64,000 nucleotides of DNA, taken from contig NZ_CP076458.1 of assembly GCF_018866245.1 (NCBI RefSeq), positions 3,224,001 to 3,288,000 of the forward strand, read 5' to 3'. This DNA is from Novisyntrophococcus fermenticellae. GTDB lineage: Bacteria; Bacillota; Clostridia; Lachnospirales; Lachnospiraceae. The translations under genes and the position numbers were made by a program. The notes beneath the pieces were generated by a model. The model was not told the origin of the DNA. It was given only the letters and a program-made list of their open reading frames with translations, and made no database searches. This document shows positions 8,288-35,504 of the stretch, piece by piece. How positions within the stretch are numbered: position 1 is the stretch's first letter; every line of letters starts with the position of its first letter.

Positions 8288-8309
8288 CGATAACTGTGTA
8301 ACTCTTATC

Positions 8310-8672: not shown

Positions 8673-8691
8673 AGTTGAATACCTCCAAAAT

Positions 8692-10690: not shown

Positions 10691-10702
10691 ATCTGCCCTC
10701 CG

Positions 10703-11587: not shown

Positions 11588-11593
11588 AGTGAA

Positions 11594-14210: not shown

Positions 14211-14236
14211 ATCAAGTTCTCCTTTCTCACGGGGTA

Positions 14237-14333: not shown

Positions 14334-14345
14334 GTTCTCAGTCTA

Positions 14346-14765
14346 CTATCTCTCATAATCCTTTGATTTCGGCTTAAAAGGTTCAGCCACGATATTGCCG
14401 CCCACTTCCTTAGAAAAGCGTTCAGGATACTTGAACTGTTCCTTGTATTTCTTCATCATATCGTCCGGCAAGCTCTGAAAACTCTCACTCTCAGGCGGTG
14501 CATAACAGATAAAGAATTTGCCGCAGATAATATCTACCATCTCTTTCTTATCATTGTCCTGCACATAAACTGCACGGTTAAGCGGAAGTCCTCTCATCTT
14601 TCCTTCCTCATTACAGATGATTGCAACATCATCGTCATAGGGCATATATTCCTCAATATCCCCGCCGACAACCTCCTGCATTGCTTCCAGACTGTCGTCG
14701 ATTACAATTTCCTTCGGGTACTTTTCCGGTTCTACCAAGAGAACTTTAATCTTAGAATCATTCAT
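14346..14765 (-). CDS. DUF3846-domain protein
   Basis: A 139-residue protein with the DUF3846 layout: KVLLVEPEKYPKEIVIDDSLEAMQ at the start, then GDIEEYMPYDDDVAIICNEEGK and GLPLNRAV, and a GKFFICYAPPESESF segment. DUF3846 is widespread in clostridial ICEs and plasmids, with no known biochemical role. The last six residues are SKDYER, shared with the ArdC-like protein. Its ATG overlaps the stop of the Toprim gene (ATGA), so the two are translationally coupled. Confidence 0.85.
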   Translation of the reverse strand: MNDSKIKVLLVEPEKYPKEIVIDDSLEAMQEVVGGDIEEYMPYDDDVAIICNEEGKMRGLPLNRAVYVQDNDKKEMVDIICGKFFICYAPPESESFQSLPDDMMKKYKEQFKYPERFSKEVGGNIVAEPFKPKSKDYER

Positions 14766-15733: not shown

Positions 15734-15744
15734 CGCCTTCCTGT

Positions 15745-21102: not shown

Positions 21103-23065
21103 GCCACTGAGGATAGCGTTCTTTTTCCTTTGGATTTAAGTATCTGTCCATTCGGATAAGTTCCCCGATACGTTTCTCCACCTGCGACCACGAAAGCGTG
21201 ATATGTGGCTTCTCTTTACCGATGCCTTTCGTAATCGTAATACCTTTTCCGTCGTGACTCTCATCAATGCCTGCCCCGATTATAACGGGATAAGAACCGC
21301 CCCAACCGTATTCATTTTTCAAGAAGTCGGCATTTTCTTTTGCAGAAAGACTTTTTTCAAACTGCTCATAGATACGCATTTTCCCCTCAGAAAATCCGCT
21401 TCCATTCGCAAGAACAGCGTCGATAATCTCCTGAGAAAAAACAAAGGCAGAGGTTTTCTTTTCCTCTGCCCGACCGTCTAATATGAATGTCATCTGACCG
21501 TCCATTGACGGTAATGGTTTTATGCTGTCACTTAATTCTCCCAGTAATCGCATAGCTTCAAAATGACGGGCAATAACAGCCCAATCATAATAGCTCTGTG
21601 CGGTTCTGCTGTCGTATTTGCCCTCCCACAAATGCAGAACGTTTTCAAAGGTCTTGTACCCTACTGTCCTGCCGTCCTCTAAAGTAAGTTCGGTATAATC
21701 ATTATTGAAAATACTCTTTATATACTCTGTGCGGTCTTTGTTATCAGGATTACGTTCATAATAATCTTTGATTTCTTCCAGACTTGCTGACAAATGTGGT
21801 GTCGTTCTGAGAATTTCATTGATTACTTCATCACGCCCAAAGAACGGAAGGCTTTTATCCTCGTGCGTTCTGTCGTAATACTCTAAGCGAATATCACTTC
21901 CGCTTTCACGATTTCCTGTGCCGAGCTGCGAAGAGAGTTCATCAGACGAACCCATTTCATCATATCCTCCGCTTTCATCTGTTCGGTCACTCCCTCTTTC
22001 TGTGCCATCTGGCTCAGGATTGTTTCCTCCATCTTGCTGGCTCTCTGTTCCACTTCCGCCAAGTGCTGTGTCAGTTCGCCCCTCGTCAGGAGATTGTAGT
22101 AAAGGACTCTGTGATGTTCCTTCAGAAACTCTCTCCTCATCTGAGCGTATCTGCCCAACGTCACTTCCGGCTGCTGTGGAAGTTTCAGGTTCGGAAGGCT
22201 GTAATCGCCCACCATCGTGTAGGTCAGCTCGTTCATTGTCCCAACTCCTTTCGTCGTTATTTTCAACCTTATTGTATTCATTTCTGTCCTGACCGACAAT
22301 TATGCGATTTTGACGGTTGAGTGCAGTAATTGTTTTAGATATTTCCGTCAATCCCATTTCTGCAATATCACTGGTAGCAAATCCAAGTGCATTGAGTGTT
22401 TCCTGCGTATTGAAATTGGTAACATCTCTGAAATCATCAAGTTCAAAATAACCTTCCGTATCGATGCCAAGCCTTGACATCATCATATATGCCACACTGT
22501 TTGCTACAACATTTTTATAAATGGAAGCTACAATATCCTCTTCCACTTCCTCAAAGGAACTGCCCTCGGTTGCATAGTAAAGGTCTTGCAGATAATCAGG
22601 GATATTATCCTCTGCCGCATTTCTTGCTGCTCCCATAATTGCTTCGGCAAGACTGCTCTTATTCTCAATCTCTCCGAAAGTGCTTTCCAATGTTTCAATC
22701 ACATCAGCTTCGTATTCCTGACGCATATCCCAAATCGGGACTGTTCTTGAATATCTGCTTTCGTGAGTATCTGAAATGTCAAAGTAATGTGTCAGTCTTT
22801 GCCGTGAACGGTTTTCATCAGCAAAAACAGCAATACCTCTTGCACCTCGATTGACCCATCTGCCAAAAATTTTGTTCCACTGCTCTATCTCAAGAACCGC
22901 TGTTGCATCAGGTCGCTGTGCATATACAAGAAGCTGTTCGTCATAACGTAACTTATAATTTCGGCAAGCCGAAGCTAAGAACGCCTGCCAGTTCTGAGGA
23001 TTTGACACAACCGTTTTGCAGGTGCGGTTGTAAAGCTCAGAAATAAGGTCATATTTTCGTGCCAT
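21035..23065 (-). CDS. N-terminal part of the giant methylase-helicase unit (ArdC-like N-domain)
   Basis: A 676-residue protein. Residues 20-100 match the ArdC-like domain that begins the giant ICE methylase-helicases (NWQAFLASACRNYKLRYDEQ, then LLVYAQRPDATAVLEIEQWN). A structured region continues to about 255. Residues 260-400 are low-complexity and rich in Ser, Gly, Asp and Glu, and exactly there the TnpV gene is encoded in another frame. Residues 400-676 form a second folded region. It ends PQWLESQEERRAKIEETKKK and stops while the next ORF continues in the +1 frame. In related ICEs I recall this as one polypeptide, so this may be a natural split, a frameshift signal or a mutation. Confidence 0.8.
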   Translation of the reverse strand: MARKYDLISELYNRTCKTVVSNPQNWQAFLASACRNYKLRYDEQLLVYAQRPDATAVLEIEQWNKIFGRWVNRGARGIAVFADENRSRQRLTHYFDISDTHESRYSRTVPIWDMRQEYEADVIETLESTFGEIENKSSLAEAIMGAARNAAEDNIPDYLQDLYYATEGSSFEEVEEDIVASIYKNVVANSVAYMMMSRLGIDTEGYFELDDFRDVTNFNTQETLNALGFATSDIAEMGLTEISKTITALNRQNRIIVGQDRNEYNKVENNDERSWDNERADLHDGGRLQPSEPETSTAAGSDVGQIRSDEERVSEGTSQSPLLQSPDEGRTDTALGGSGTESQQDGGNNPEPDGTERGSDRTDESGGYDEMGSSDELSSQLGTGNRESGSDIRLEYYDRTHEDKSLPFFGRDEVINEILRTTPHLSASLEEIKDYYERNPDNKDRTEYIKSIFNNDYTELTLEDGRTVGYKTFENVLHLWEGKYDSRTAQSYYDWAVIARHFEAMRLLGELSDSIKPLPSMDGQMTFILDGRAEEKKTSAFVFSQEIIDAVLANGSGFSEGKMRIYEQFEKSLSAKENADFLKNEYGWGGSYPVIIGAGIDESHDGKGITITKGIGKEKPHITLSWSQVEKRIGELIRMDRYLNPKEKERYPQWLESQEERRAKIEETKKKPRDTL
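21883..22236 (-). CDS. tnpV: TnpV-like protein encoded inside the giant ORF
   Basis: A 117-residue protein beginning MNELTYTMVGDYSLPNLKLP that strongly resembles TnpV (transposon-encoded protein): LGRYAQMRREFLKEHHRVLYY, LLTRGELTQHLAEVEQ, then GVTEQMKAEDMMKWVRLMNS and an ending SAQEIVKAEVIFA. The ATG at 22236 has AAGGAG 8 bases upstream. It lies wholly within the 676-residue ORF, +1 relative to it, over that protein's low-complexity linker. Both frames stay open, so this is overprinting, not an insertion that breaks the host frame. TnpV function is unknown. Confidence 0.75.
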   Translation of the reverse strand: MNELTYTMVGDYSLPNLKLPQQPEVTLGRYAQMRREFLKEHHRVLYYNLLTRGELTQHLAEVEQRASKMEETILSQMAQKEGVTEQMKAEDMMKWVRLMNSLRSSAQEIVKAEVIFA

Positions 23066-23080
23066 TACTCTTGCACCTCC

Positions 23081-23380
23081 TTATCGCTGTTTTTCTCTGT
23101 TTCTGGTCTTGTTTTTTGACGGTTCGGATTGATTGATAGGTTCAACTTTGCTTCCATTAAGCTCCATTTTTTCAGCAAACTCGCATATATGATAGCAGCA
23201 ATTCCCGACGTACAAATGGTAGTCATCAATATACTTGCACACTCTGTCTGCTGTGTGTCCATCACGAAAAGTAATCCTGATTTTTCCACCATCGGGAATA
23301 TAGAATTTTAAATTGTAATGACTGTCTATAAATCGAATTTGCTTTTCCTGCGGCTCTGCTCTATTCTCCTGTTGCTTCAT
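23081..23380 (-). CDS. Conserved ICE protein of unknown function (99 residues)
   Basis: A 99-residue protein with a recognisable pattern: FYIPDGGKIRITFRDGHTAD, then CKYIDDYHLYVGNCCYHICE and FAEKMELNG, with a basic tail. I have seen this arrangement as a small ICE gene just before the giant methylase-helicase, but I cannot name the family. Cys and His residues (CC, HIC) might bind metal. It is 15 bases upstream of the giant gene and overlaps the previous gene by 20 bases, so it is in the same operon. Confidence 0.75.
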   Translation of the reverse strand: MKQQENRAEPQEKQIRFIDSHYNLKFYIPDGGKIRITFRDGHTADRVCKYIDDYHLYVGNCCYHICEFAEKMELNGSKVEPINQSEPSKNKTRNREKQR

Positions 23381-23621
23381 TTTCCTTACCTCTCATTTTT
23401 GTTGCTTCATCAGAACCGCCGCCCAAATACGAAAAGAGTTTACCGGACTTTGTATTCTTCTGAAGCTCCATAATCACACCCATATCTGGAATCGTGATAT
23501 TCGGGATTTTCAGGATTGCTTCCATATCAAGCTGCTGCAACTTTTTCTCCGTATCACAGCCGGAGTCAAAGAGTTTATTCAGCACCTTGACCTTATTCTG
23601 AAAAGTTGCTTTGTCTTTCAC
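23361..23621 (-). CDS. Unknown small ICE protein (86 residues)
   Basis: An 86-residue, predominantly helical protein. The first part (FQNKVKVLNKLFDSGCDTEK) is amphipathic, the middle (ILKIPNITIPDMGVIMELQK) is conserved-looking, and the end is charged and probably disordered. The start is GTG with AAGGGGG upstream. It is flanked closely on both sides, which supports it as a real gene. I do not recognise a domain. Confidence 0.7.
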   Translation of the reverse strand: MKDKATFQNKVKVLNKLFDSGCDTEKKLQQLDMEAILKIPNITIPDMGVIMELQKNTKSGKLFSYLGGGSDEATKMRGKENEATGE

Positions 23622-23633
23622 GAAAATACCCCC

Positions 23634-23930
23634 TTAGTTAATGTTGATTACAATAGAAATACTGCCGCTCTGTTCTTCTTTCTGCGGATTACGTGAATAC
23701 TCAGGAAAAAGGGACTGTACTCTCTGCCTTGCCCTGCGTATGGTTTCAAAACAAGGAAGTCCGTATGCTCGGTAATTAAATACAATATCCTCAAGCGGAA
23801 GATTTCCGGCAGGTATATATCCGTACCGATTGTAATAATGCAGAATGAGAAGCATATCATCATACCTCGACATCGGGCATTCCTTTAAGATTTCAAGCAC
23901 TCGGCTCTCCACCGTTTTCTGTTGTTTCAT
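23634..23930 (-). CDS. Conserved ICE protein, possible winged-helix (98 residues)
   Basis: A 98-residue protein. Residues 5-85 alternate helices in a way that suggests a winged helix: VESRVLEILKECPMSRYDDM, then LLILHYYNRYGY, and CFETIRRARQRVQSLFPEY as a possible recognition helix. It resembles small replication/regulation proteins of phages and ICEs but I cannot assign a family. TGGAGG precedes the ATG. It is the first gene after the terminator-like hairpin at 23946-23976. Confidence 0.7.
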   Translation of the reverse strand: MKQQKTVESRVLEILKECPMSRYDDMLLILHYYNRYGYIPAGNLPLEDIVFNYRAYGLPCFETIRRARQRVQSLFPEYSRNPQKEEQSGSISIVININ

Positions 23931-23941
23931 AATGTTCCTCC

Positions 23942-23976
23942 AAAAATTAAAGGGACAGAGTTTTTACGCTCTGCCC
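23942..23976 (-). terminator. Terminator/attenuator between adhesin and accessory genes
   Basis: On the minus strand a 9-bp stem (GGGGCAGAG / CTCTGTCCC, one G-U) is followed by TTTAATTTTT. It lies between the 29-residue membrane peptide and the 98-residue gene, so it would partly uncouple adhesin expression from the processing genes downstream. Confidence 0.65.
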
Positions 23977-24001
23977 CGACTGGTTAATGTTCGCTTGTTA
24001 C

Positions 24002-24091
24002 TTACTTCTTACGGTTTTTAACCTGAAGAAAGATAAAGCCGCCGACAATAACGGCGACTAATGCGATAGCGATAATTGTCTTTGCTTCCAT
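24002..24091 (-). CDS. 29-residue single-span membrane peptide
   Basis: A tiny gene encoding MEAKTIIAIALVAVIVGGFI followed by FLQVKNRKK, i.e. one clear membrane span with a short basic cytoplasmic end. Its ATG shares one base with the adhesin stop (TAATG), and GGAGGG lies 9 bases upstream within the adhesin's last codons. Such coupling and a strong SD support translation. Function is unknown; it could assist adhesin anchoring or be a small channel accessory. Confidence 0.6.
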   Translation of the reverse strand: MEAKTIIAIALVAVIVGGFIFLQVKNRKK

Positions 24092-27000
24092 TACTCGTTA
24101 CCCTCCTTTTTCTTCTTTTTGTGTGCAACAACAGACGTTACAGCGATACCGACAGCAGAAAGTCCGGCAAGGACATACCAAAGTTTCATATTGGTATCAT
24201 CTCCTGTCTTTGGAGTATCCCTCAACTCATTGTGCATTTTTACAACGGCTGTTTCATCAAGTTTGATAGTAACATTCTGGTCGGCAGGTGTGATATATGC
24301 GGCAGAAGCATTGTTTGCCACTTCGGATACGGTATATTCGCCAATACGAAGTCCCTCAATCACAATTTCGCCGTTCTTATCTGTTTCAAATGTCATATCA
24401 TAGCCGTTTGCTCCGGTTACTCTGAACGCAAAACCTTTGACCTTACCGTCTGAAGATGTCTTAACGATTTTCAGTGTTCCACGCATAGCTTCATTGATAA
24501 ATCCAACACCTGCCTTATTCTCAACGGAATAAGTTGTTTCGTCTTTCTCAATGAAAACAGAGTATTCTCCCTTATCAAGCAGGAAGCCCTCCGGTGCTTT
24601 TGTTTCACGGACAATATATTTTCCGTAAAGCAGTTCTTTCATCTCATAAATTCCGGTTTCAGTTTCTTCAAGATTTCCGATAAGTTCATCGCCATCATCA
24701 ATCTTTCCGTTCTCATTGGTGTCCTTATATACCTCGAAGGTTGCACCCGTAAGCTTGTTATCCGGATATTCAGCATCCACCTTCGTGAGTCTGATATTGC
24801 CGTGAACATACTCATTGACAATCTCAATTTCAACTACCTGCTCGGCTTCGCTGATATTGACCTCATACGCTTTTTCATCAAGAACAAATCCCTTTGGCTG
24901 CTCGATTTCTCTTACAATCCATTTGCCATAAGGAACTTTTGCAAAAGAAAAACTACCGTCTTTTGCAGAGGTAGTCGTCATAAGTGCAGTATCCTTTGTA
25001 AATTCTGTTTCTTCGGCTTTGAAGATACCGATAACAGCACCCTCAAGTGCTTCTCCGTTCTCGTCAATCTTCTTACCTGATACAGAACCATAGATAAGTT
25101 CATTCTTGATTTCTTTTCCGTCATTCACTTTGATTTCAACCGTTGCGGTATCCTGACCTGCGTATTCAAATACAACCGGATACTTCGTATCAGAGAGAAT
25201 ATAATGCTCATCGGTTGCAATCTCTTTGACATAGTATTTGCCAAACGGAAGGTCTGACTTCATAACAGCAGTTCCATTTTCATTTACGCTGACAATCTCA
25301 ATCAGTCCATCAGCCGGAATAACTGTACCGCTTGCAGATACAATATCTTCTGCGGCATAAAGACCAAAGCTGATATTTTTGATTTCTCCGTTATCGCCAA
25401 TACCAAATGTCTTGTCCTTTTCAATGGCTTTTGCAAGGCTTACCTGAACTTTCTGTCTTTCGTTATAGAACGATGTGGAAGTTTCGGTAACAGAGATATT
25501 CTGACCTGCGTAAGTAAGCTCAACCGTATGTGTTTCGCCACTGATTACCATTCCATAAGGTGCGGTAATTTCCTTGACCTCGTATTTTCCGAGGTAAAGT
25601 TCTTTGCTCTTAACAAATCCATCGGAGCTTGTTGTGATAGTATCTACCACTTCGCCCTTTGAATAGCGGAGTGTACCGTCCGGTGTGCTAATATCTTCCG
25701 CAGCACGGACTTCATAAACTGCACCCTCAAGTCCTGCCACTTCATAAACAGGCTGATAGATAACATCACTGTCCTCAGAACCACTTACATTGACACCACT
25801 AAATACTTCTCCGTTCTTTTCAACCGTGATAGTACCTTTCTGTGCCATATTCGGTTTATTGACTTTCACAACAGTTACGCCGCCTTCCTCTGTAGAATTT
25901 TCTTCGGTAATATCAAAATATACCGGAGTATCATCAAGTACATACCCGTATGGAGCTTGTACCTCTACGATGGAATATCCCTTGCCGTAATCTAATTTCT
26001 CAGGTGTTACAAGAGAACCATTTGCGTCGGTATAGAACACATCAATCGTGGTTGGTGTCGGATAAGTAAAGGTCATTTTGACCTGATTGCCCTGCGGGTC
26101 GTAAATCTTAAATCCTGCTCCTGCATACGGAATACTCTTTCCGCTTTCTGCGTCCACCTTGACTACATTGACAAAGCTCTCAAAGTTACGGTTATTGATA
26201 AGATAACGGTAGGTCTGTGCGTTCTGTGAAATGAACACATCAAAATCGTCCATCATCTCTCTGCCTTCCCAACCGGAAGTCTGGTGTACGGTATAAATAC
26301 CATACGGCATATCTTTTGTCTGACCGAAGCCATTTTCATCGCATACGATAGTATCTCTCTCGTCTTTATTGGCTGCGTCATAGCTTCCGGCAGATTTCAG
26401 GTAAATCTCAAAGGAAGCACCCTTTTCAGGTGTTTCAATCTTTGTTTCTCCATCATCAGTGTGTTTAATGATAGCCACATTGCCTTTGATTACCTGCTCG
26501 GTTACATCATTGGAAGTAAGGTTGTGTTCCACCTCATAAAGTTTCGGGTCTGCACCTACCTTGTGAATGGTCTTATCAAGGAGATAGCCTTCACTCGGTG
26601 TAATTTCTCGGATTGTCCAGTCGGTATCACAAACATATTCTTTGGTAGTGAACTGACCGTTTTCATCAGTAACATATTTATCTACAAGCGTTTCGCCCTT
26701 ATAGATACCGTAAATTGCTCCCGAAAGTTTGGCATTGCCCTGTGCTTCGCCTTTTTCAGCATCGCTCTTTGTTACTGTTACAGTAAATTTCTTTAAAATG
26801 TTATTGAAGTTTCTTGTGGTTACTTCTTTCCACTTCACTGGTGCAGTCTGATTTTTCGGTACAACATAACGGATAGCTGTGTCTACTTCTTCAAGGGTAT
26901 ATGGTTCAGAACCACTGATAAGCATATCTTTGAAAGTTGCCACACCGTTTTTGTCTGTAACTGCATACTGGTCAACAGCATCACCGGAAAGAGAAGTACC

Positions 27001-28341
27001 GTAAAGATGGAACTTCACACCTTCAACAAGGTTATCTTCTGAGGACTTCACTACCTGAAGGTCGCCACGCTTCAATTTGTTATTGAAATTGACCTTTGCA
27101 ACCTGTCCTGCTACAACAGTAACTCTATGTGTTTCCTGCGGCTCGTACTTATCGTATGCCTGCTCGGTTACGGTATAGATACCCGGCATAAGGTTATCAA
27201 TCTGGAACTTACCGCCATTAGCTGTTGTAACCGTCTGATTGATACCGTTTCCGGTAATCGTGAAGTTGATACCGTCAACCTTGCCGTCCTCACTGGTCTT
27301 TACAATCTGACAAGAACCATAGCTGACTTTCATTTTCACATAACCGTTGATACTATCGCTTACTTCCTGAGCATAGCTGACAACATCCTGCACACTGGAG
27401 TTCTGACCGTGTTTGCCCTCTGACCATACAACCACACCTCTGCGGACTGCATTTTTCTTCGTTGCGGTAATGGTAAATTCCTTACTCGGTGCAGTATCCA
27501 TAGAAACAGTAAGTTTGTTACCATTCACTGAAAAGCTCACTCCACTGATACTTGCCTTGAAATTATATTTGGACAGCACATTATTGGAGTCTGTCAGAGT
27601 AGTTGTGTACTTACTTCCGTTCCACTCAAGTTCTATTGTCTTTGCCGAACCGGACGATTTATTACAAAAGCTCGGTATGATCGCATGGTTCTGTACACTC
27701 TGCACCATACTGTTGTAATAACTGAAAATCTTATTGCGGAGCGGATGCTTTGCATTGATGACATCTTTCACATTGCTGCAACCACTGGCTGCTACATGAT
27801 TGAAGTTCGCATCACGCTCTCCGATAACAGTTTCCCAGATAAGAAGCTGTGTAGCATAAGCCTGTGCAATGCTGTTTGCTGCCGCTTCATTCTGTGACCT
27901 CCAAGAAGTCGAGATTGTCCCACGATAGCCATACTGTAAAATACGACCAACGAAAAGACGTATTTCATCTCCGGAAATAACCCCATTGGCTGCAAGGTTA
28001 TTAAAATAATTTTCGTCATACTTATTCATTGTCTGACCGACCTTGAGCGAAATTCCCGGCTCAATACAATAAGCAACATTGCCTGAGTATGAGCCAATAG
28101 CCTTAAGATTGGTAAAATTGGAACGTCCGGTATGCCAACCATTTTTCAAGGTCAAATTGCTGTGTCCCCATACCCCATCGTAATTAGCATCGCCATCACG
28201 AGGGAAATCGACCATATAAACATCGGCTTTTTCTCCCGAAGCAGCATATGCTGTTGTCGAGCCAATGCCTGCAAAAGTGGTCACACACATAAGGGTCGCC
28301 AAGAAAAGCGACGTGACTCTTTTGAATTTTGACTTTATCAT
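24091..28341 (-). CDS. ICE-encoded thioester/CnaB-repeat surface adhesin with sorting signal
   Basis: A 1416-residue wall-anchored protein. A signal peptide ends at about residue 35 (TTAYA/ASG). The N-terminal domain has the thioester pair: Cys near residue 91 in AYCIEPG and Gln near 163 in ATQLLIWE. At about residue 340 a stalk of ten CnaB/SpaA-like repeats begins, most with a starting Lys (VxKxD/S) and a closing Glu (YTVxEx, YIVRET) for isopeptide bonds and an Asn near the end. The C-terminus has TPKTGDD, a membrane span and KKKKK. The start at 28341 follows GGAGG. Likely role: covalent attachment to a partner cell or host surface, anchored by the element's sortase B. Confidence 0.93.
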   Translation of the reverse strand: MIKSKFKRVTSLFLATLMCVTTFAGIGSTTAYAASGEKADVYMVDFPRDGDANYDGVWGHSNLTLKNGWHTGRSNFTNLKAIGSYSGNVAYCIEPGISLKVGQTMNKYDENYFNNLAANGVISGDEIRLFVGRILQYGYRGTISTSWRSQNEAAANSIAQAYATQLLIWETVIGERDANFNHVAASGCSNVKDVINAKHPLRNKIFSYYNSMVQSVQNHAIIPSFCNKSSGSAKTIELEWNGSKYTTTLTDSNNVLSKYNFKASISGVSFSVNGNKLTVSMDTAPSKEFTITATKKNAVRRGVVVWSEGKHGQNSSVQDVVSYAQEVSDSINGYVKMKVSYGSCQIVKTSEDGKVDGINFTITGNGINQTVTTANGGKFQIDNLMPGIYTVTEQAYDKYEPQETHRVTVVAGQVAKVNFNNKLKRGDLQVVKSSEDNLVEGVKFHLYGTSLSGDAVDQYAVTDKNGVATFKDMLISGSEPYTLEEVDTAIRYVVPKNQTAPVKWKEVTTRNFNNILKKFTVTVTKSDAEKGEAQGNAKLSGAIYGIYKGETLVDKYVTDENGQFTTKEYVCDTDWTIREITPSEGYLLDKTIHKVGADPKLYEVEHNLTSNDVTEQVIKGNVAIIKHTDDGETKIETPEKGASFEIYLKSAGSYDAANKDERDTIVCDENGFGQTKDMPYGIYTVHQTSGWEGREMMDDFDVFISQNAQTYRYLINNRNFESFVNVVKVDAESGKSIPYAGAGFKIYDPQGNQVKMTFTYPTPTTIDVFYTDANGSLVTPEKLDYGKGYSIVEVQAPYGYVLDDTPVYFDITEENSTEEGGVTVVKVNKPNMAQKGTITVEKNGEVFSGVNVSGSEDSDVIYQPVYEVAGLEGAVYEVRAAEDISTPDGTLRYSKGEVVDTITTSSDGFVKSKELYLGKYEVKEITAPYGMVISGETHTVELTYAGQNISVTETSTSFYNERQKVQVSLAKAIEKDKTFGIGDNGEIKNISFGLYAAEDIVSASGTVIPADGLIEIVSVNENGTAVMKSDLPFGKYYVKEIATDEHYILSDTKYPVVFEYAGQDTATVEIKVNDGKEIKNELIYGSVSGKKIDENGEALEGAVIGIFKAEETEFTKDTALMTTTSAKDGSFSFAKVPYGKWIVREIEQPKGFVLDEKAYEVNISEAEQVVEIEIVNEYVHGNIRLTKVDAEYPDNKLTGATFEVYKDTNENGKIDDGDELIGNLEETETGIYEMKELLYGKYIVRETKAPEGFLLDKGEYSVFIEKDETTYSVENKAGVGFINEAMRGTLKIVKTSSDGKVKGFAFRVTGANGYDMTFETDKNGEIVIEGLRIGEYTVSEVANNASAAYITPADQNVTIKLDETAVVKMHNELRDTPKTGDDTNMKLWYVLAGLSAVGIAVTSVVAHKKKKKEGNE

Positions 28342-28356
28342 TGCGTTTCCTCCTGT

Positions 28357-28391
28357 AAAAATTGAAAAACACACCGTATCTCTACGATGTG
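28357..28391 (-). terminator. Intrinsic terminator inside the adhesin leader
   Basis: On the minus strand CACATCGTA gaga TACGGTGTG forms a 9-bp stem with a GNRA-type loop, followed by TTTTTCAATTTTT. It ends only 16 bases before the adhesin start codon, inside the 5' leader, so it would act as an attenuator. A two-codon reading frame after GGAGG (ATG GTA AAA TGA near 28470) lies upstream in the leader. Confidence 0.6.
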
Positions 28392-28503
28392 CCTTTGTGG
28401 ATTTTCTCTTACGACAAGATTTACCTGCCGAAAAACAAATGCGGATTTTTCGTTAATTTTTCATTTTACCATACACCTCCAGTCCGTTCATACTGTGCGA
28501 TTG

Positions 28504-28593
28504 CCCCTTAGAGATAGACATATACTTTGAGATAGTTATATTCAAGTGAGATAGTATATATCATTTTCGGTAGGTAAAAATATAACTAAGGGG
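28504..28593. repeat. Three GAGATAG iterons framed by an inverted repeat
   Basis: GAGATAG occurs at 28511-28517, 28529-28535 and 28548-28554, i.e. with 18- and 19-base steps. CCCCTTAG (28504-28511) and CTAAGGGG (28586-28593) frame the block as an 8-bp inverted repeat. It lies between parB and the adhesin gene. It could be the partition site for ParB or an activator/repressor site for the adhesin promoter. Confidence 0.55.
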
Positions 28594-28626
28594 TTAGAGT
28601 GTGAGAAAGGGGAACTGTAAAACAGG

Positions 28627-29559
28627 CTATCTGCTGTCACGCTCTGCACGATTACGCAAGAACTTGTTGTAATGCTCCAATGCTTTGCAGACAAAATCCT
28701 CCGTCTGACTGACGGGAATGTTTTTCGGGATAAGCTGTCTTACTCTGTCGCCCCTCAACACGATTTTTTCCTTTTGGTTCGGCTTTTCCTCAGACATAAC
28801 AGCGTGGATTGCTTCTGTTGTAAGGTTGCCCTCGTTGAATAACTTTCGCATACGGATTGTCTGGTCGTGTGACGGGGTAGCGTCATTCAGGTCGATTTCG
28901 TCAACCACATCACGCTGGCAATCTTCGTCAAGATAGGAAAGTTCTACGGCAGGACGCATTTTAATACGCCCCTCGTCAACAAATTCAAGCAGCTCGGGAA
29001 CAAGGTTTGTAAGGCGAACATAACGCTGGATTTGCGTTTTACTATCAGCAGAATTTTCTGCAATTTGTTCCACCGAGAACTTCTGCCCCACTGGGGCAGA
29101 AGTTAAATCAGAACGAAATCCTTGCCTTTTCATTGCGTCCAATCGCATTTTGTAGGCAAAGGCTTTTTCAGAGGGAAGTATCTGCGACCTTTGGAAATTA
29201 CTTTCCACCATTAGAATTGTGGCTTCATCTCGATTAAGGTCAACAACCTCACATCTTAGTGTTTCAAAACCGGCAAGTTCACTTGCTCGTTTTCGTCTGT
29301 GACCGGATACGAGTTCATATCTTCCGTCCTCTTTCTGCCTTACCGTAGCCGGAGTAATTACTCCACGTTCCTTGATACTCTCGACAAGCTGCTGCATATC
29401 TTCATCGTCCCTGACCTTGAATGGATGGTCTGGGAAATCGTCAATCAGCTCTAACGGAATATCTCGGATTTTTGAAAGTTTTTCCTCATCTCTCTGCTCC
29501 TGTGTTGAAAACAAGTCATCGAGCCTCGTGAGAGTGAAGTCGCTCTTTCTTCCTGCCAT
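28627..29559 (-). CDS. parB: ParB partition protein
   Basis: A 310-residue ParB/Spo0J-type protein. The N-terminal ParB domain has the CTP-binding motif SGHRRKRASELAG near residue 85 and a preceding QLVESIKERGVITPATVR segment. A central helix-turn-helix follows (VEQIAENSADSKTQIQRYVR near 160-180). The C-terminus is a probable dimerisation helix. It is translationally overlapped by parA (44 bases). It would stabilise the excised circular or replicating form of the ICE. The gene contains an unusual 27-bp palindrome at 29078-29104. Confidence 0.93.
   Translation of the reverse strand: MAGRKSDFTLTRLDDLFSTQEQRDEEKLSKIRDIPLELIDDFPDHPFKVRDDEDMQQLVESIKERGVITPATVRQKEDGRYELVSGHRRKRASELAGFETLRCEVVDLNRDEATILMVESNFQRSQILPSEKAFAYKMRLDAMKRQGFRSDLTSAPVGQKFSVEQIAENSADSKTQIQRYVRLTNLVPELLEFVDEGRIKMRPAVELSYLDEDCQRDVVDEIDLNDATPSHDQTIRMRKLFNEGNLTTEAIHAVMSEEKPNQKEKIVLRGDRVRQLIPKNIPVSQTEDFVCKALEHYNKFLRNRAERDSR
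29078..29104. repeat. Perfect palindrome inside parB
   Basis: AACTTCTGCCCC and GGGGCAGAAGTT are perfectly complementary 12-base arms around ACT. The DNA encodes TSAPVGQKF, a segment that ParB homologs also carry, so the symmetry sits on top of coding sequence. Confidence 0.85.
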
Positions 29560-30340
29560 CAGCTAACACCTCCTTCGTAAATTCGGTGTATGCCTTAGAC
29601 ACCGTACTGTTTGGCTCATAAGCAAAAATGCTCTTTCCTTTGGAAGAAGTTTCTGCGGCTTTTACAGCAATCGGAATAGATGTGCGATACAGTTTAATCT
29701 GATTTCCGAAATTCTCCCGCAACGCTTCCACCGTACTTTTGGCGAGGTTTGTGCGGTTATCCACCAAAGTGAGAAGCATACCGTCTATCTTAATGTCCTG
29801 ATTGATATACTTCTTGACTTTTGAAATGGTCTGCACAAGCTGGGTCATACCCTTAGCCGGCAAATACTGTGCCTGCACCGGAATAATCACGCTGTCTGCC
29901 GCAGATAAAGCATTGAGTGTTACCATACTCAGTGAGGGCATACAGTCAATCAGAACAAAATCATATCTGTCTTTGACCTGACTTAAATAATTCCTCAAAG
30001 TGGTTTCTCTGCTCATAGCGTTCATTAGGTTATATTCCATCGCCGAAAGTTCAAGGTTCGCCGGTAAAAGGTCAACGCCTTCCTCGTGATGCAGGATACC
30101 GCCTGTCGGGTCATTCATCGTTTCACTAATCACATCTGTAAGTTTCGTTGCAAGCGTGATACCCAAATTGTCTGTATCTCTCCAGCCGAGACAGGTGGTT
30201 AAATCTCCCTGTGGGTCTGCGTCTATGAGCAACACTTTCTTACCCTGCATTGCAAGCCCAACGCCAAGATTAACCGTTGTCGTTGTCTTTCCGACTCCGC
30301 CTTTTTGATTGCATATGGCAATCGTTTTGCAGTTTGACAC
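29516..30340 (-). CDS. parA: ParA partition ATPase
   Basis: A 274-residue deviant-Walker ATPase. KGGVGKTT lies at residues 13-20, followed by LLIDADPQGDLTTCLG, the switch motif FVLIDCMPSLSMVTLNAL near 130 and SVIIPVQAQYLPAKGM. It lacks an N-terminal helix-turn-helix, so it is the small (type Ib/chromosomal-like) form. It overlaps parB by 44 bases. ParA and ParB together should distribute element copies to daughter cells. Confidence 0.95.
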   Translation of the reverse strand: MSNCKTIAICNQKGGVGKTTTTVNLGVGLAMQGKKVLLIDADPQGDLTTCLGWRDTDNLGITLATKLTDVISETMNDPTGGILHHEEGVDLLPANLELSAMEYNLMNAMSRETTLRNYLSQVKDRYDFVLIDCMPSLSMVTLNALSAADSVIIPVQAQYLPAKGMTQLVQTISKVKKYINQDIKIDGMLLTLVDNRTNLAKSTVEALRENFGNQIKLYRTSIPIAVKAAETSSKGKSIFAYEPNSTVSKAYTEFTKEVLADGRKKERLHSHEAR

Positions 30341-30361
30341 CTCTTGCGTCCTCCTTTCGAT

Positions 30362-30502
30362 TTATTCATAGCCAATAAAAACGGCTATGTACTTGACCGT
30401 TTCATTTCCTAAACGGTCGTGGCAATATTTATTCTCAATATCCCTTGCCAAGCATATCGCTTTCGGGAAGTCGTTAAGGAACAGGCTGCTTATCTGTATC
30501 AT
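30362..30502 (-). CDS. Possible 46-residue peptide upstream of parA
   Basis: An open frame encoding MIQISSLFLNDFPKAICLAR followed by DIENKYCHDRLGNETVKYIAVFIGYE in two parts. The 46 residues look protein-like (amphipathic helix then a strand), and the frame ends 21 bases before the parA start. The ribosome site is only moderate (AGAGG, 10 bases before ATG). The coding stretch also contains the stem GACCGTTT / AAACGGTC. It may be a small regulator of parA; it is not in a family I recognise. Confidence 0.5.
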   Translation of the reverse strand: MIQISSLFLNDFPKAICLARDIENKYCHDRLGNETVKYIAVFIGYE

Positions 30503-30834
30503 AGGAATCTAACCTCTGCCGGGTACTCCGCCAGCTCCGTAGAGAAGTATCATTATCTTTCTGACTGTCATCGCCATATCGGTTGCAATCCGATACTCAT
30601 AGCAGGAGTTCTCGCTGTTCTGAAATTTTCAGAAGTTTTGGCGTACCCACTAAAGTGGCTATCATCAAAATTAAAGTCTTAACGACCTGTGTATTCAGTT
30701 GTCAAAGAACAAGTGAAAAGGCTTCCGTTTTCATCATCAGGAAATAACCCCTTCACTCATTGCACAAAAGGCTTCATTTTGGACACCCAAAATCGCTGCT
30801 TTTCCGAAAAAAAATCCAAAAAATTTTTGACAAC
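30503..30834. promoter_or_regulatory. Non-coding region upstream of the partition operon
   Basis: About 330 bases without a convincing gene. On the minus strand TTGACA (30705-30700) is placed to start the parA operon, with a weak -10 (TTAAGA) 17 bases on. A perfect 17-base dyad TTCTGAAA t TTTCAGAA lies at 30618-30634, between that promoter and the 46-residue frame, where a repressor or ParB could bind. The rest, near 30720-30830, is A/T-rich with no structure I can name. Confidence 0.45.
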
Positions 30835-30870
30835 AAAAAAGCCGCCTGTTTCGGTTAAAAAACAGACGGC
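30835..30870 (-). terminator. Terminator after the 57-residue gene
   Basis: On the minus strand GCCGTCTGTTT ... AAACAGGCGGC (11 bp, one G-U) is followed by TTTTTTG. It separates the cargo genes from the partition operon. Confidence 0.85.
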
Positions 30871-30884
30871 ATAAATGCTTGAAA

Positions 30885-31058
30885 TTATTTGATTTTCAGT
30901 TTCTTTTTCCTTGCGGACAGCACTTTCAGAAGAACTTCATCTACTGCGTCGGTGTATCTTCCTTGTACTATGAGGTTGTTTTTCAGATTGATAAGCGACT
31001 GTATCACTCTGCTTTGCTCATCATCGGTTAGATAAATGTGATATTTCTTTTCTCTCAT
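30885..31058 (-). CDS. 57-residue protein, paralog of the 67-residue mob-operon protein
   Basis: A 57-residue protein beginning MREKKYHIYLTDDEQSRVIQ and continuing SLINLKNNLIVQGRYTDAVD, then EVLLKVLSARKKKLKIK. Alignment by eye with the protein at 10487-10690 shows the same KxYHIxLxDxE, VIxSL, DAVDxxLxKV and basic end. The ATG overlaps the stop of the zinc-ribbon gene (ATGA), and GGAGG lies 8 bases upstream. It is followed by a strong terminator. Function unknown. Confidence 0.7.
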   Translation of the reverse strand: MREKKYHIYLTDDEQSRVIQSLINLKNNLIVQGRYTDAVDEVLLKVLSARKKKLKIK

Positions 31059-32443
31059 CGGCTGTTCCTCCAGTTCTTAAATATTTTCCTGATTATCTTA
31101 ACATCTTCTTCTGTATCGGAAGATATAAATATATGTACGCTCTGAAATGCCGCTTTGATACGCTGTGCATATTCGGGTTCCGCTTCGTTTGACTTCATCG
31201 GCAACTTAATGAGTTTGATTCCACGTTGTTTACAGAGATGTTCCTTTATTATATCTATCTTCTCCGAGTCCGTATTCACTTGAATGGCAACCTGCTCCAG
31301 TGGGATATATACATCAAGTGGAATGCCGAATAACCTATCAGAGCCAAGTTCAACTTTCAATCCTTTCAAATTGGCATAATAACTGATTACAAGAGCCGGG
31401 AACAATGACAGATACTCCTGCTCACATATTCTGCACCCTTTTACGAGAACAGTACGCTCGTTTATCTTCATACTCCAAGAATGACCGTATCTGCATTGCC
31501 ACCATGCTCTCTTTGCTGAATTTCTTGAAACTTCCGTCGGCTTCAACTTATTTAATTCATAATTCCATTCTGCCAAAAGCTGCTTATCCGTCGTAGCCAA
31601 ATCATTGTATCCGGCAAGCACTTCTCGCTCTGCACAGACAGGGCAAACCGTTCCTTTCACACGGGCATTGATAACTGATTTCCACTCGTTTCCACATTTT
31701 CTGCAATGCCACCATACATTTTTCCTCGACTTTGCATTGACTTCATCCGGTTGCAGAGGATAGTTTTTCTCTGACCATTCTTTGGCTATCTGTGGGTGTG
31801 TACTCTTTAGGTCATTCCTGCCTTTTATAAATGTATAGCCACTGCAACAAGGACATTTACTGCCGCCTGAACGTGTAGAGATAAGCGTATTCCATTCATA
31901 ACCGCAGGTTCTGCACTTCCACCAAGCCTTGCTGTTTGCAAACGCCATAACTTCGGTAGGCTTCTTTTCATTCTTATCAGACCATTCGTCGGCTACTTCC
32001 GGGAACAGGGTTGCAAGGTCATTAAATCCGGCAAGAACTTTATTATGGGAGCAATACGGACAGCCTGTTTTGTTGATGGTTCTGCTCTTTACAGTGGCTA
32101 TCCATTCGTGTCCTAATTTACACTTCCATATCACTTTCTTGTGTGAGCCGATAGATACCTCTGTCGGCTTGATTTCATTTTTCTCTGACCACTCCGAAGC
32201 CAATTCCGGCTTCAATGTACATAAATCGTTAATTTCCTCAATCACTCTCGCACCGGAGCATATGGGGCATTTCTCGCCACTGGAACGAGCCTTTATACTT
32301 GTTTCCCATTCGTGACCGCAAGCACCTTTCCACCATACTTTCTTATTCGAGCCGAAAGTCACGCTGTCCGGTGTCAGCGGTAAATTCCTATCCGACCATT
32401 CGGCAATCAATTCGGGATGTACTGCCGCTAAACTGTTACTCAT
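31055..32443 (-). CDS. Zinc-ribbon repeat protein with a degenerate Vsr-like C-terminal domain
   Basis: A 462-residue protein made of five tandem treble-clef/zinc-ribbon repeats of about 67 residues, each with PEL..EWS..N, then KVWWKC..GHEW and CPxC (family PF14311/DUF4379 by memory). The last about 115 residues resemble the PD-(D/E)xK nuclease fold of Vsr-like domains usually fused to such repeats: PLDVYIPLEQVAIQVN followed by CKQRGIKLIKLPM. Where active relatives have AIEYDG, this one has AIQVN, so the acidic residue is lost. It is cargo next to the putative right end of the ICE. A defence or DNA-surveillance role is inference. Confidence 0.75.
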   Translation of the reverse strand: MSNSLAAVHPELIAEWSDRNLPLTPDSVTFGSNKKVWWKGACGHEWETSIKARSSGEKCPICSGARVIEEINDLCTLKPELASEWSEKNEIKPTEVSIGSHKKVIWKCKLGHEWIATVKSRTINKTGCPYCSHNKVLAGFNDLATLFPEVADEWSDKNEKKPTEVMAFANSKAWWKCRTCGYEWNTLISTRSGGSKCPCCSGYTFIKGRNDLKSTHPQIAKEWSEKNYPLQPDEVNAKSRKNVWWHCRKCGNEWKSVINARVKGTVCPVCAEREVLAGYNDLATTDKQLLAEWNYELNKLKPTEVSRNSAKRAWWQCRYGHSWSMKINERTVLVKGCRICEQEYLSLFPALVISYYANLKGLKVELGSDRLFGIPLDVYIPLEQVAIQVNTDSEKIDIIKEHLCKQRGIKLIKLPMKSNEAEPEYAQRIKAAFQSVHIFISSDTEEDVKIIRKIFKNWRNSR

Positions 32444-32523
32444 ATCAAAACCTCCACTTCCTCTGTGATTAGAGTATATGAAGTTTCGGCTTTTTCTTGT
32501 AGTTTGCGAATATCGGTAAAAAT

Positions 32524-32569
32524 AAAAAAAGCCCTTTGAGAAAAGATTTTTTCCTCTCTCAAAGGGCTT
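32524..32569 (-). terminator. Terminator after the GNAT gene
   Basis: AAGCCCTTTGAGA ... TCTCAAAGGGCTT is a perfect 13-bp stem followed on the minus strand by TTTTTTTATTTTT. Confidence 0.9.
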
Positions 32570-32581
32570 GAATAAATTAGT

Positions 32582-33025
32582 TTATAGGTTTCTTCGAAAA
32601 ATTACCATATCCACCAACCTGACGCCACATTCAAATATCGGGTTGTCGTAATTATCTGTAAAAAAGTTTGGTATGGTATGAGAACGAACAAAACCGCACT
32701 TTTCATAAAACGGAACCGTCAGCGGACTGTCGCCGGTTCCAACCTGTAAAACGGAATATTTATCGTCATATTCGTTCACAAGAAAATATATCAAGGCTTT
32801 GGCATAGCCTTTGCCTTGATATTCGGGAACGGTTGCAATATTCTTTATTTCAAGAATTCCGTCGCCCTCATCGGTGACGACACATTCAGCTTTCACACCG
32901 TTATCGTCAAGCACATACATAGTGCCTCTTTCAAGATAACGGTCTACCATATTTTCCTGTTCATCTGCCAACAGCAGTAATGAAAGAAACTGTTTTTTAT
33001 TTTTAATAACCTCTGTGATTATCAT
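32582..33025 (-). CDS. GNAT-family N-acetyltransferase
   Basis: A 147-residue acetyltransferase. The acetyl-CoA site is clear: EIKNIATVPEYQGKGYAKAL (residues 59-78), followed by VLQVGTGDSPLTVPFYEKCG and the FV..H segment common in this clade. The substrate cannot be read from the sequence; related proteins are often annotated only as GNAT. It is 23 bases downstream of the cupin gene and shares its operon. It lies between the ICE core and lysS, so it may be element cargo. Confidence 0.85.
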   Translation of the reverse strand: MIITEVIKNKKQFLSLLLLADEQENMVDRYLERGTMYVLDDNGVKAECVVTDEGDGILEIKNIATVPEYQGKGYAKALIYFLVNEYDDKYSVLQVGTGDSPLTVPFYEKCGFVRSHTIPNFFTDNYDNPIFECGVRLVDMVIFRRNL

Positions 33026-33048
33026 TGTTTATTCCTGCAAATTTCGTT

Positions 33049-33378
33049 TTAACGGTCTACTACTACCGTAAGCAGCACCAAATCGTCGTCTCCGGTATTT
33101 TCAATGCTATGCTGTGAACCTTTTTTACAGATATGACAAGTTCCTGCTTTCAGAATTTCCTCTTGACCATCGCAGACTGCTTTGCCTGTTCCGGACAGGA
33201 CATAATTTATATCATCACTCGTTTCGTGCTTATGACGCCCGATTGAGCCACCGGAATGGATTTTTGTCGGGATTATTTTTCCTTGCTCATCCATAAACAT
33301 TCTTGCACTCATTGTGCCTGTGCCACCGTTCATACCGGAAATTGTTATTTCTTTTGTTTCATTGAAGTCTATCAGCAT
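33049..33378 (-). CDS. Cupin-domain protein
   Basis: A 109-residue single-cupin protein. Motif 1 is seen in GSIGRHKHETSDDINYVLSG (two His and a downstream acidic residue) and motif 2 in AGTCHICKKGSQHSIENTGD. This is the layout of small metal-dependent cupins; the ligand is not predictable. The ATG follows GGAGG. It is the first gene after lysS and forms a two-gene operon with the acetyltransferase. Confidence 0.85.
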   Translation of the reverse strand: MLIDFNETKEITISGMNGGTGTMSARMFMDEQGKIIPTKIHSGGSIGRHKHETSDDINYVLSGTGKAVCDGQEEILKAGTCHICKKGSQHSIENTGDDDLVLLTVVVDR

Positions 33379-33398
33379 TTTTTACCTCCGCTTATTCT

Positions 33399-33430
33399 GA
33401 AAATGGGCAATTCCGCAATGGAACTGCCCA
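33399..33430 (-). terminator. Terminator-like hairpin between lysS and cupin
   Basis: TGGGCAGTTCC / GGAATTGCCCA (11 bp, one G-U) followed by TTTT on the minus strand. It probably ends the greA-lysS transcript before the cupin operon. Confidence 0.65.
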
Positions 33431-33481
33431 TATATCTTGAAAATTATGCGATTTTTAAGGCTCTGCACCGTTTCAAGCACC

Positions 33482-34013
33482 ATTTGGTGTAAATTTGGTG
33501 TATTTGTGTATTTTCAGAGCTTTTTCACAAATGAAGTACATCCCGTTTTGTAGGGTAAAACGGTACTTCTTAGTAGAGCTTTGCACCTGCCGGAATATGG
33601 TCATCTACCATAAGCAGATGGAGCTTTTCTTCGCCTTCTTCTTCGTGTACTGCACTCAGAAGCATACCGCAAGAATCAATGCCCATCATTGCTCTTGGGG
33701 GAAGATTTGTGATTGCGATAAGTGTCTTACCAACAAGTTCTTCCGGCTCGTAATATGCGTGAATACCGCTTAAAATGGTTCTATCCGTGCCTGTTCCGTC
33801 ATCAAGAGTGAACTGAAGGAGTTTCTTTGACTTCGGTACTGCAACACACTCTTTAACCTTTACAGCTCTGAAATCAGACTTTGAGAATGTATCAAAATCA
33901 ACATCTTCTTCAAATAAAGGCTCAACCTTTACCTTAGAAAAATCAATCTTTTCAGGCTTTGAATTTGGTGTAGAAACTTCTTTATCCTTTACACCATTTT
34001 CGGATTTTACACC
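33482..34013. repeat. Cluster of GGTGTA repeats around the lysS 3' region
   Basis: ATTTGGTGTA occurs three times exactly (33482-33491, 33493-33502, 33963-33972), and GGTGTAAA occurs twice on the other strand (33988-33995, 34006-34013). The last three are in the lysS linker codons, the first two after the stop. Such short direct and inverted repeats beside an integration point resemble integrase arm sites, but no integrase is in view. Confidence 0.5.
33533..33569 (-). terminator. Hairpin directly after the lysS stop codon
   Basis: The arms GAAGTACCGTTTT and AAAACGG-(3 nt)-GTACTTC pair with a small bulge immediately after the lysS stop. There is no U-tract, so it is a stabilising or weak terminator hairpin. 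Confidence 0.45.
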
Positions 34014-35504
34014 ACCGAGGGTCTTCATTGTCGGGAACAACAAAACATCCCTGATCGCTGCCGAATCCGTCAGCAGCATACACATTCTGTCAATCCCAAA
34101 CCCGATACCGCCAGTCGGAGGCATTCCAAGTTCCAGTGCATTCAGGAAATCTTCATCCGTGGTATTCGCTTCCTCATCACCTTGTGCCAGCAATTCTTCC
34201 TGCGCCTTAAACCGCTCCCGCTGGTCAATCGGATCATTCAGCTCGGAATAGGCATTCGCCATCTCCCATCCATTCATAAAGAACTCAAACCGTTCCACAT
34301 ATTCCGGGTTTTCCGGTTTTTTCTTAGTCAACGGTGAAATCTCTATCGGATGATCCATCACAAAGGTAGGCTGAACCAGATGTTCCTCCACAAATTCTTC
34401 AAAGAACAGATTCAGGATATCGCCCTTCTTATGACGTTCTTCAAACTGTATATGACGCTCCTTTGCCAGTGCACGCGCCTCTTCTAAGGTCTGGATCTCA
34501 TTGAAATCCACACCGGCATACTTCTTTACAGCATCTACCATCGTGATTCTCTCAAATGGCTTCCCAAGATCCATCTCTACGCCTCTATAAGTAATCGTAG
34601 TGGTCCCCAGAACCTCTTGTGCCACATGACGGTACAGATTTTCGGTCAGATCCATCATCCCGTGATAATCGGTAAATGCCTGATAGAGCTCCATTAACGT
34701 AAACTCCGGATTGTGTCTTGTATCCAGTCCCTCGTTACGGAACACTCTTCCGATTTCATACACCCGTTCCATGCCGCCGACAATCAGCCGCTTTAAATAT
34801 AGTTCAAGAGAAATGCGCAGCTTAAAGTCTTCATCCAGCGCGTTAAAATGAGTTTCAAACGGCCTCGCTGCCGCACCGCCTGCATTGGCTACCAGCATCG
34901 GGGTCTCCACCTCCATAAAGCCCTGTCCGTCCAGATAATGACGTATGGAGCTTAAGATTTTGGAGCGCTTGATGAAGGTGTCCTTAACTTCTGGATTCAT
35001 AATTAAATCCACATATCTTTGTCTGTAACGAAGATCCGTATTCGTCAATCCATGGAACTTCTCCGGTAATATCTGAAGACTTTTGGTAAGCAGCAGAATA
35101 CTTGTCACGTGAATGGAAATCTCACCTGTCTTTGTCTTAAACACAGTTCCAACCAGGCCGATGTTATCTCCCATATCCATCTTTTTGAAGTCTTTGTAGG
35201 ACTCCTCGCCTACATTATCCCTGGCCACATAGCACTGAATGGTGCCCTGCAGATCCTGAACATGACAAAAAGAAGCTTTTCCCATCACGCGTTTTGACAT
35301 CATACGCCCTGCGATAGAAACTTCTTTATCTTCTAAGGTATCAAAATTATCTTTTATTTCCTGGCTGTGATGTGTTACATCGTACCTGGTAATCTGATAT
35401 GGATTCTTCCCGCTTTCCTGCAATTCCTGCAGCTTCTCACGACGTACCTTCAACAGATGGTTAATGTCCTGTTCCTGTGTTTGATTCTGCTGTCCTGCCA
35501 CCAA
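33570..35504 (-). CDS. lysS: Lysyl-tRNA synthetase (class II) with a fused C-terminal tRNA-binding domain
   Basis: A 644-residue enzyme that charges tRNA-Lys with lysine. Residues 1-493 are a complete class II LysRS: an OB-fold (about 60-150), motif 2 [20 protein letters not shown] near 253 and motif 3 [13 protein letters not shown] near 466, then the usual terminal block [12 protein letters not shown] 37-residue linker ([20 protein letters not shown] and following) joins a Trbp111/MetRS-C type domain at about 530-644 ([46 protein letters not shown]). The tail has ICE-like codon choice and repeats, so the element may have supplied it. It is the second gene of the greA operon. Confidence 0.95.

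Follow-up and report, generated by a model that had tools for sequence, protein, structure and literature searches.

What becomes of an essential enzyme when a mobile element settles in the 3' end of its gene? Insertion at the 3' ends of housekeeping genes is usually explained as sparing the host gene. The question is raised by lysS, which encodes lysyl-tRNA synthetase (LysRS), in a 64,000-nucleotide stretch of the Novisyntrophococcus fermenticellae genome (contig NZ_CP076458.1, positions 3,224,001 to 3,288,000 of the forward strand), referred to here as the window. An integrative and conjugative element (ICE) begins at the end of lysS, and the encoded LysRS carries an additional C-terminal domain, which a preliminary description of this DNA attributed to the ICE. 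We consider it very probable that the ICE was inserted in the 3' end of lysS, where it swapped the native tail for a mobile tRNA-binding cassette that changes LysRS, and we infer a role for this cassette below. Coordinates without a genome label are window positions (Table 1), and G000 denotes the genome of the window.

First, the end of the ordinary enzyme was located. Because the true start codon of lysS is uncertain, residues 6-644 (a 639-aa stretch) were used in the analyses. The TIGR00499 model of bacterial LysRS scored 668.5 bits against a cut-off of 427.6 and spanned residues 9-489 of 639; since the match ends at residue 489, the ordinary LysRS stops at about ...LLFPTMK. The lysS frame runs beyond this native end, FPTMK, through a linker into an oligonucleotide-binding (OB) tRNA_bind domain, 153 residues counted from TMK. 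Pfam detected tRNA_anti-codon, tRNA-synt_2 and then tRNA_bind (PF01588, E 9.6e-23, residues 541-637 of 639), and third-position GC content (GC3) was 0.34 in the extension, against 0.51 in the core. The genes 3' of lysS lie on the same strand and encode a cupin and a GNAT acetyltransferase, then ParA, a relaxase, VirD4, VirB4 and a lysozyme/CHAP protein. These results bear out the preliminary description, which had placed the end of an ordinary bacterial LysRS here, followed by a switch to an A/T-rich linker, a Trbp111/MetRS-C-like domain (MetRS, methionyl-tRNA synthetase) and, beyond the stop, cargo and ICE genes in the same orientation. lysS was the sole close LysRS match in the genome; the remaining matches were synthetase-like frames of 25-28% identity, probably Asp/Asn-tRNA synthetases, and one MetRS-like C-terminus. 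A profile search of the genome gave no class I LysRS above the cut-off.

Subsequently, the two ends of the element were examined. The exact attachment core, TTYCCNACNATGAAR, occurred once in the 3.42-Mb genome, and the reversed control pattern twice. When one mismatch was allowed, the core TTCCNACNATGAAR was found at four sites, including lysS, in the window plus 40 kb leftward (104 kb), and among the three non-lysS sites one alone, the distal end of the element, leads into a lysS-like tail. This distal core, TCCCGACGATGAAGAGTATCGAAAAATAA, lies at G000 3196387, 27.6 kb to the left of window base 1. The core is thus directly repeated at both element ends (TCCCGACAATGAAG at 3258036 and TCCCGACGATGAAG at 3196387; 13/14 bp identical), and the displaced native lysS tail at the distal core reads S-I-E-K-stop. 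The element measures 61,650 bp with a GC content of 0.413, and joining its flanks in silico gave LLFPTMKSIEK followed by a stop. The lysS 3' remnant and the matching attachment (att) repeat that the preliminary description had advised seeking to the left of the window were therefore located. Its claim that the element replaces the native lysS end holds as an exchange of tails, four codons after TMK for 150; the domain was not added to an intact end. A tyrosine integrase of 413 aa with Phage_integrase and Tn916 Integrase_DNA domains is encoded about 270 bp from the distal core. In the flank past the distal att (L036 8553-12195), two paired AbiE-like genes and part of a RhuM-like gene were recognised by eye; they may be left over from earlier insertions at this site.

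The comparison with close relatives that had been proposed was also informative. Among 20 relatives with a short lysS and no domain, picked for usable flanks, 19 stop within 10 codons after FP, and one has exactly SIEK. In the twentieth (G062:C12:44017-54600, L125), LysRS is fused in frame to an HD-domain protein, which is a separate gene in other Lachnospiraceae (matches in 41 other genomes, 100 searched). DNA identity between G000 and its genus-mate G001 is 83.9% over the LysRS core and 77-86% in the host DNA upstream of it; beyond the core it is 100% throughout the extension (462 bp), the 3' non-coding stretch (189 bp) and the adjoining 1,233 bp of ICE. The identity thus breaks at the att core. 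With the genus-mate G002, the LysRS core is 77.9% identical and 87% of the ICE aligns at a mean identity of 93.4%. The G002 integrase is 99.5% identical over 413 residues and its lysS-side domain 82%, so that the element ends seem to have been shuffled. Furthermore, in 26 of 26 locus pairs that are at least 97% identical after and at most 87% identical before the boundary, the first upstream mismatch lies 0-15 nt from the FP/TMK junction; these pairs, drawn from 59 loci with linked core and domain plus the window, involve 14 loci and the window and are not independent. An empty site was sought within the genus; distal-flank DNA occurred only as fragments in 3/5 other genomes, and the G004 contig ends at the lysS 3' end.

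The preliminary description had called the linker full of GGTGTA repeats. Three such motifs are real and two further GGTGTA/TACACC motifs lie directly past the lysS stop, although "full of" overstated their number. The integrase end of the element bears TTACATCAAATACATCAAA. Inverted ACAYCA motifs were found in the coding linker of 28/40 relatives with ACAYCA arms after the stop and of 0/9 with other repeat types, in counts of related copies that are not independent; the window stood outside this table and its motifs were read by eye. The GGTGTA motifs may therefore be arm-type integrase sites that lie partly within the coding linker. Two arm-repeat detectors were too narrow or too weak to sort loci into element-bearing and element-free, and their counts were not used.

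These observations suggest the following course. The ICE, by its Tn916-type integrase, would recombine attP into the TTCCCGACxATGAA core, the codons FPTMK of lysS. Its left end brings a substitute lysS 3' end, and the host tail S-I-E-K-stop has been displaced by 61.65 kb. Since the ICE end carries this substitute, LysRS now ends in an OB-fold tRNA-binding domain, as can be read directly from the sequence. Comparison with other genomes shows the domain to be a mobile C-terminal cassette that elements move between genera and families; with repeated insertion at the one site, the newest cassette appears to set the LysRS C-terminus and older ones stay parked downstream. The domain is predicted to hold tRNA 3' CA ends, may add a dimer contact and would make LysRS bind tRNA more tightly for as long as the element stays integrated; this gain would presumably help element retention.

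We then asked what the domain is likely to do. Both in sequence and in its model it resembles Trbp111, the C-termini of MetRS and EMAPII-like domains (1pyb, 8vtz, 1mkh); against Trbp111 8vtz, the model (mean predicted local distance difference test score, pLDDT, 70) gave TMt 0.80 and TMq 0.60. The Trbp111 residues described as binding the tRNA 3' CA end are K33, R75, F78, S82 and M85 (PMC11286949). K33, R75, S82 and M85 correspond to K70, R113, S120 and M123 of the domain, so that four of the five contacts are kept, in a mapping made by eye from the alignment, where a constant offset of 2 fits all nine named residues. Over 144 domains, K70, S120 and M123 were conserved in 144 and R113 in 143, and the F78 position was Met in 144/144; in a pairwise alignment, the MetRS of the host carries Ala where the domain has R113. 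In Trbp111, the exchange R75A, at the counterpart of R113, is reported to have all but eliminated binding (PMC11286949). The median ratio of nonsynonymous to synonymous substitution (dN/dS) was 0.079 for the domain (616 pairs) and 0.058 for the core (53 pairs), which indicates that the domain is under purifying selection. The low dN/dS together with the invariant tRNA-contact residues points to constraint beyond keeping the frame open. OB-domain fusions of this kind are described as having raised aminoacylation efficiency, for example in Entamoeba (PMC11286949, introduction). Better tRNA handling by LysRS is most likely the role of the domain.

Regarding its origin, many genomes of family f4, of the same class, hold a second kind of domain relative, and MetRS lay upstream in 19/20 of the loci checked. 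Such C-terminal domains are common in MetRS. Those of the f4 MetRS (L254, L323-L341) are 64-79% identical to the domain of the window, and those of five Lachnospiraceae MetRS 36-39%. The f4 domains are much nearer to the mobile LysRS domain than to these Lachnospiraceae MetRS. In the tree, the mobile LysRS and f4 MetRS domains split from five other MetRS (support 100), and the f4 MetRS form one clade (87). On a very long distant root this clade sits inside the LysRS domains, which taken literally makes LysRS the donor; the tree accordingly does not show MetRS as donor. MetRS is nonetheless a plausible donor of the domain.

That short-tailed elements manage with about four codons at the same site, and that the domain is closest to the MetRS C-termini of one clostridial family, would also be expected if the domain were a neutral tail that was picked up by chance on one occasion, perhaps from a MetRS gene, and kept so that the fused frame ends harmlessly. 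We regard this as unlikely, as four codons would be cheaper and the dN/dS of 0.08 and the invariant tRNA contacts stand against it. It is considerably less probable that the domain, rather than acting in charging, shields tRNA-Lys from anticodon nucleases or phage, or couples the translation state to excision; in its favour, the domain is predicted to bind tRNA, and defence-like genes were seen by eye in the ICE.

Copies of the domain parked away from the lysS core record earlier insertions at this site, if the proposed exchange by the ICE is right. In G150, four domains alternate with three integrases, in the order lysS-domain and then three times integrase-core-domain. Among 20 parked copies examined, an integrase starts about 1.1-1.6 kb upstream in 13, and an att core was found in 13. 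Where lysS and a parked copy were found together on a single contig, no more than about 155 kb apart, the copy was downstream of lysS and on the same strand in 19/19 genomes (by eye: G002, G010, G077, G107, G108, G109, G150, G157, G183, G227, G268, G270, G286, G300, G328, G371, G394, G706 and G726). A short-tailed lysS with a domain parked downstream was observed in G109 (about 120 kb), G286 (about 60 kb) and G270 (about 70 kb); neither integrase nor core was detected beside the copy in G270. This is the layout that displacement of the domain by one or more short-tailed elements would leave. G108 may be a fourth displaced case, its parked copy lying 4.9 kb downstream, where core and integrase were not found. 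Since a short-tailed LysRS gene stands upstream of a parked domain in three genomes, the isoform appears to be set by the last insertion. Excision, to judge from the att sequences, would likewise change the LysRS isoform, with G109, G286 and G270 as natural parallels.

Just after many short lysS stops (L112-L131), tandem repeats of the sort that mark element ends were seen by eye, along with a CCAGTATTTATGCGGGTTT-like stretch that recurs; from these repeats, a second, tail-restoring class of element seems to use the lysS site too. A lone domain fragment in G002 (G002:C1:2830323-2830688; L035 about 10300-10670), 531 kb from lysS, stands behind an IS110-type transposase-like end (by eye), with no att core or integrase relative within 20 kb.

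The parked copies bear on another explanation, in which the element itself benefits, the excised circle or the parked copies yielding the domain as a free tRNA-binding protein. The distal end in G000 does have an ATG in frame with the core and a purine-rich stretch upstream; however, no conserved start codon or upstream frame was found over 25 distal junctions (including two duplicates, L162 and L175, which repeat G010 and G227), and some parked copies are broken. A free-standing domain from the excised circle was rejected on the absence of a conserved start at these junctions, and we hold the explanation as a whole to be highly improbable.

The distribution of the domain across hosts was then compared with that of the LysRS core. 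Core and domain distances of 60 sequences correlated at r=0.25 (0/2000 permutations reach it), so that a weak shared signal remains; the loci were the best 80 of at least 523 relatives, picked by domain similarity to the window. As controls within the core, the last 150 residues against the rest gave r=0.88 and the two core halves r=0.75. Eubacterium ramulus and Haloimpatiens lingqiaonensis share a 97% identical domain on cores that are 58% identical. In Lachnospiraceae, the domain was found in frame in at least 41/126 genomes with a lysS match (150 searched), a count in which the G081 and G094 matches are fragmentary and certain others are cut off by contig ends. A phylum-wide draw gave a match at 1e-40 in 16/398 genomes, G000 included. 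In a plasmid collection, records under the names Collinsella aerofaciens (Actinomycetota) and Vescimonas fastidiosa also carry the domain on lysS, and one named Subdoligranulum carries it without a preceding LysRS core. In the Collinsella aerofaciens record (NZ_OY725717.1, L241, labelled a 0.9 Mb plasmid), the lysS domain is 78.5% identical and ordinary host genes lie downstream. Phage carriage was considered and rejected: no confirmed relative of the domain was found in IMG/VR, and among 20 matches listed of 27 records in a phage collection, five short unannotated fecal scaffolds match at 74-89% and the other 15 at less than 50%.

Least probable of all is that the domain is ancestral in LysRS of these bacteria and was lost many times, the ICE being merely downstream: it occurs without an adjacent ICE in Collinsella, Vescimonas and some rumen Clostridia, and it is present in three members of a single genus (f105 g462), but the displaced tail in G000 is short, only the 16/398 genomes of the phylum match, core and domain histories disagree strongly and break at the att core, and identity switches there from 84% to 100%.

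Several observations weigh against the exchange of the lysS tail by an ICE as we propose it. Neither an excised circle nor an empty-site junction was observed, and excision is deduced from sequence. The full-length LysRS model is poor in the extension, with a mean pLDDT of 26-36 at residues 481-540, 54-70 at 541-610 and 28-38 beyond. Among the 20 parked copies, 7 had no detectable integrase and 7 no core; the misses comprise G010 (no integrase), G268 (no core), two G227 fragments, one G077 copy, the G270 and G108 copies and the second G002 copy, 531 kb from lysS. Picking loci by domain similarity narrows the range and thereby lowers r, yet pairs deviate both ways. Finally, in Collinsella, Vescimonas and several other lysS-domain loci there is no adjacent element (by eye; a host-like terminator or gene follows the stop), and the domain is therefore not always element-borne now. 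Such carriers are what the preliminary description had named as counting against it, and in these hosts that is partly what was found; we read them as likely cases in which the domain became fixed after element loss. Vescimonas keeps ACGCCA-type repeats after the stop, remnant-like; Collinsella has no such repeats in the 340 bases read after the stop. These loci would fit such fixation or, in certain lineages, a native condition of older date. As the displaced native tail in G000 is short, element-free loci elsewhere leave the local case unaffected.

A wider proposal, to which we give an even chance, is that many Clostridia have, at the 3' end of lysS, an expression site whose content can be exchanged. 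Elements would plug in alternative C-termini, either a short tail or a MetRS-related tRNA-binding domain, the newest setting the isoform and older ones being stored in tandem; the domain would improve or retune the enzyme, so that carriers keep the element, and cassettes could become fixed after element decay.

The features of the locus are collected in Table 1. The transfer module of the ICE is, in our estimation, like that of Tn1549. By eye, the ICE segment L037 (G000:C1:3204001-3224000) contains type I restriction-modification genes with a recombinase adjoining specificity genes, McrBC-like genes and a Y-family-polymerase-like gene. The ICE also encodes a 1427-aa repetitive surface protein (window 24091-28374), whose C-terminal end appears by eye to be of the sortase type.

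Table 1 Features of the lysS locus and of the inserted element
Feature	Position	Strand	Basis or remark
lysS	35504 to 33570	minus	TTG start, 644 aa
lysS core, host part, ordinary class II LysRS through ...LLFP	34032..35504	minus	domain scans
Attachment core, lysS side, TTCCCGACAATGAAG, codons F-P-T-M-K	34023..34037	minus	core scan; identity break at or within 15 nt of FP/TMK
Element-supplied lysS 3' end: T-M-K, linker, tRNA-binding OB domain, including stop	33570..34031	minus	462 bp, 100% identical to G001
Linker bearing three GGTGTA/TACACC motifs, one of them inverted relative to the other two	33964..34014	minus	proposed arm sites in coding DNA
tRNA_bind (Trbp111/MetRS-C/EMAPII-like) domain	33579..33869	minus	PF01588 and fold match
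Tandem TTTACACCAAA-type repeats 3' of the stop	33483..33503	minus	proposed arm-type integrase sites; similar 3' non-coding regions in other hosts
Tn916-type integrase	G000 3196660-3197901		domain scan
ICE portion within the window	1..34037	minus	continues left to G000 position 3196387
Cupin, first cargo gene of the element	33049..33378	minus	domain scan
GNAT acetyltransferase, cargo	32582..33025	minus	domain scan
ICE relaxase (MobA/VirD2-like)	12372..13757	minus	PF03432; NCBIfam relaxase models under their cut-offs
ICE coupling protein, VirD4-like, CD1115 family	8692..10518	minus	family scan
ICE VirB4-like ATPase, CD1110 family	4576..6906	minus	family scan

At this locus, an element alters an essential enzyme by a whole conserved domain, and does so repeatedly and across families. 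This opens a testable question, namely whether an ICE can repay its host by altering core translation, and it points to a route in nature by which aminoacyl-tRNA synthetases could acquire fused domains. It also calls for caution, as mobile elements can leave their mark on the length of lysS and on lysS trees in Clostridia. In the open-access literature, in the portions accessible to us, we found no account of a mobile element adding a domain to LysRS. Both the use of lysS by ICEs and the 13-bp core were already known; the exchange of a domain into LysRS is, as far as we found, new.

The fold and most tRNA 3'-end contacts are those of Trbp111, MetRS C-terminal and EMAPII-like domains; here a mobile element has joined such a domain to a bacterial LysRS. 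In Entamoeba, LysRS (4up7) likewise has an OB tRNA-binding domain, EMAPII-like, on its C-terminal side; unlike the present one, it is eukaryotic and presumably an independent fusion, for which we know of no mobile element. Streptococcal ICEs also use a tyrosine integrase, the lysS 3' end and short direct repeats (13 or 17 bp), and as described they hardly modify the LysRS end (PMC4701971), whereas here the native tail is not restored and the exchange brings in 153 residues that include a folded domain. The enterococcal vanD islands (Tn6711-6713, PMC8301612; ICEVREfm_vanD, PMC10765050) are described with a 13-bp repeat, TTCCC[gac]AC[ag]ATGA, in lysS, with a suggested clostridial (Blautia-like) origin and with circularisation of Tn6711 and Tn6713 detected by PCR (PMC8301612, PMC10765050). 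The attachment core of the present element is thus shared with vancomycin-resistance islands; an added domain is not reported in the descriptions by which these were compared. ICEs in rumA and phage Mx8 likewise swap the C-terminus of a protein at an att inside a gene (PMC4701971). There, as described, it is the integrase (and RumA) C-terminus that changes, and no functional domain passes to an essential housekeeping enzyme (PMC4701971), as the ICE in lysS very probably brought to LysRS.
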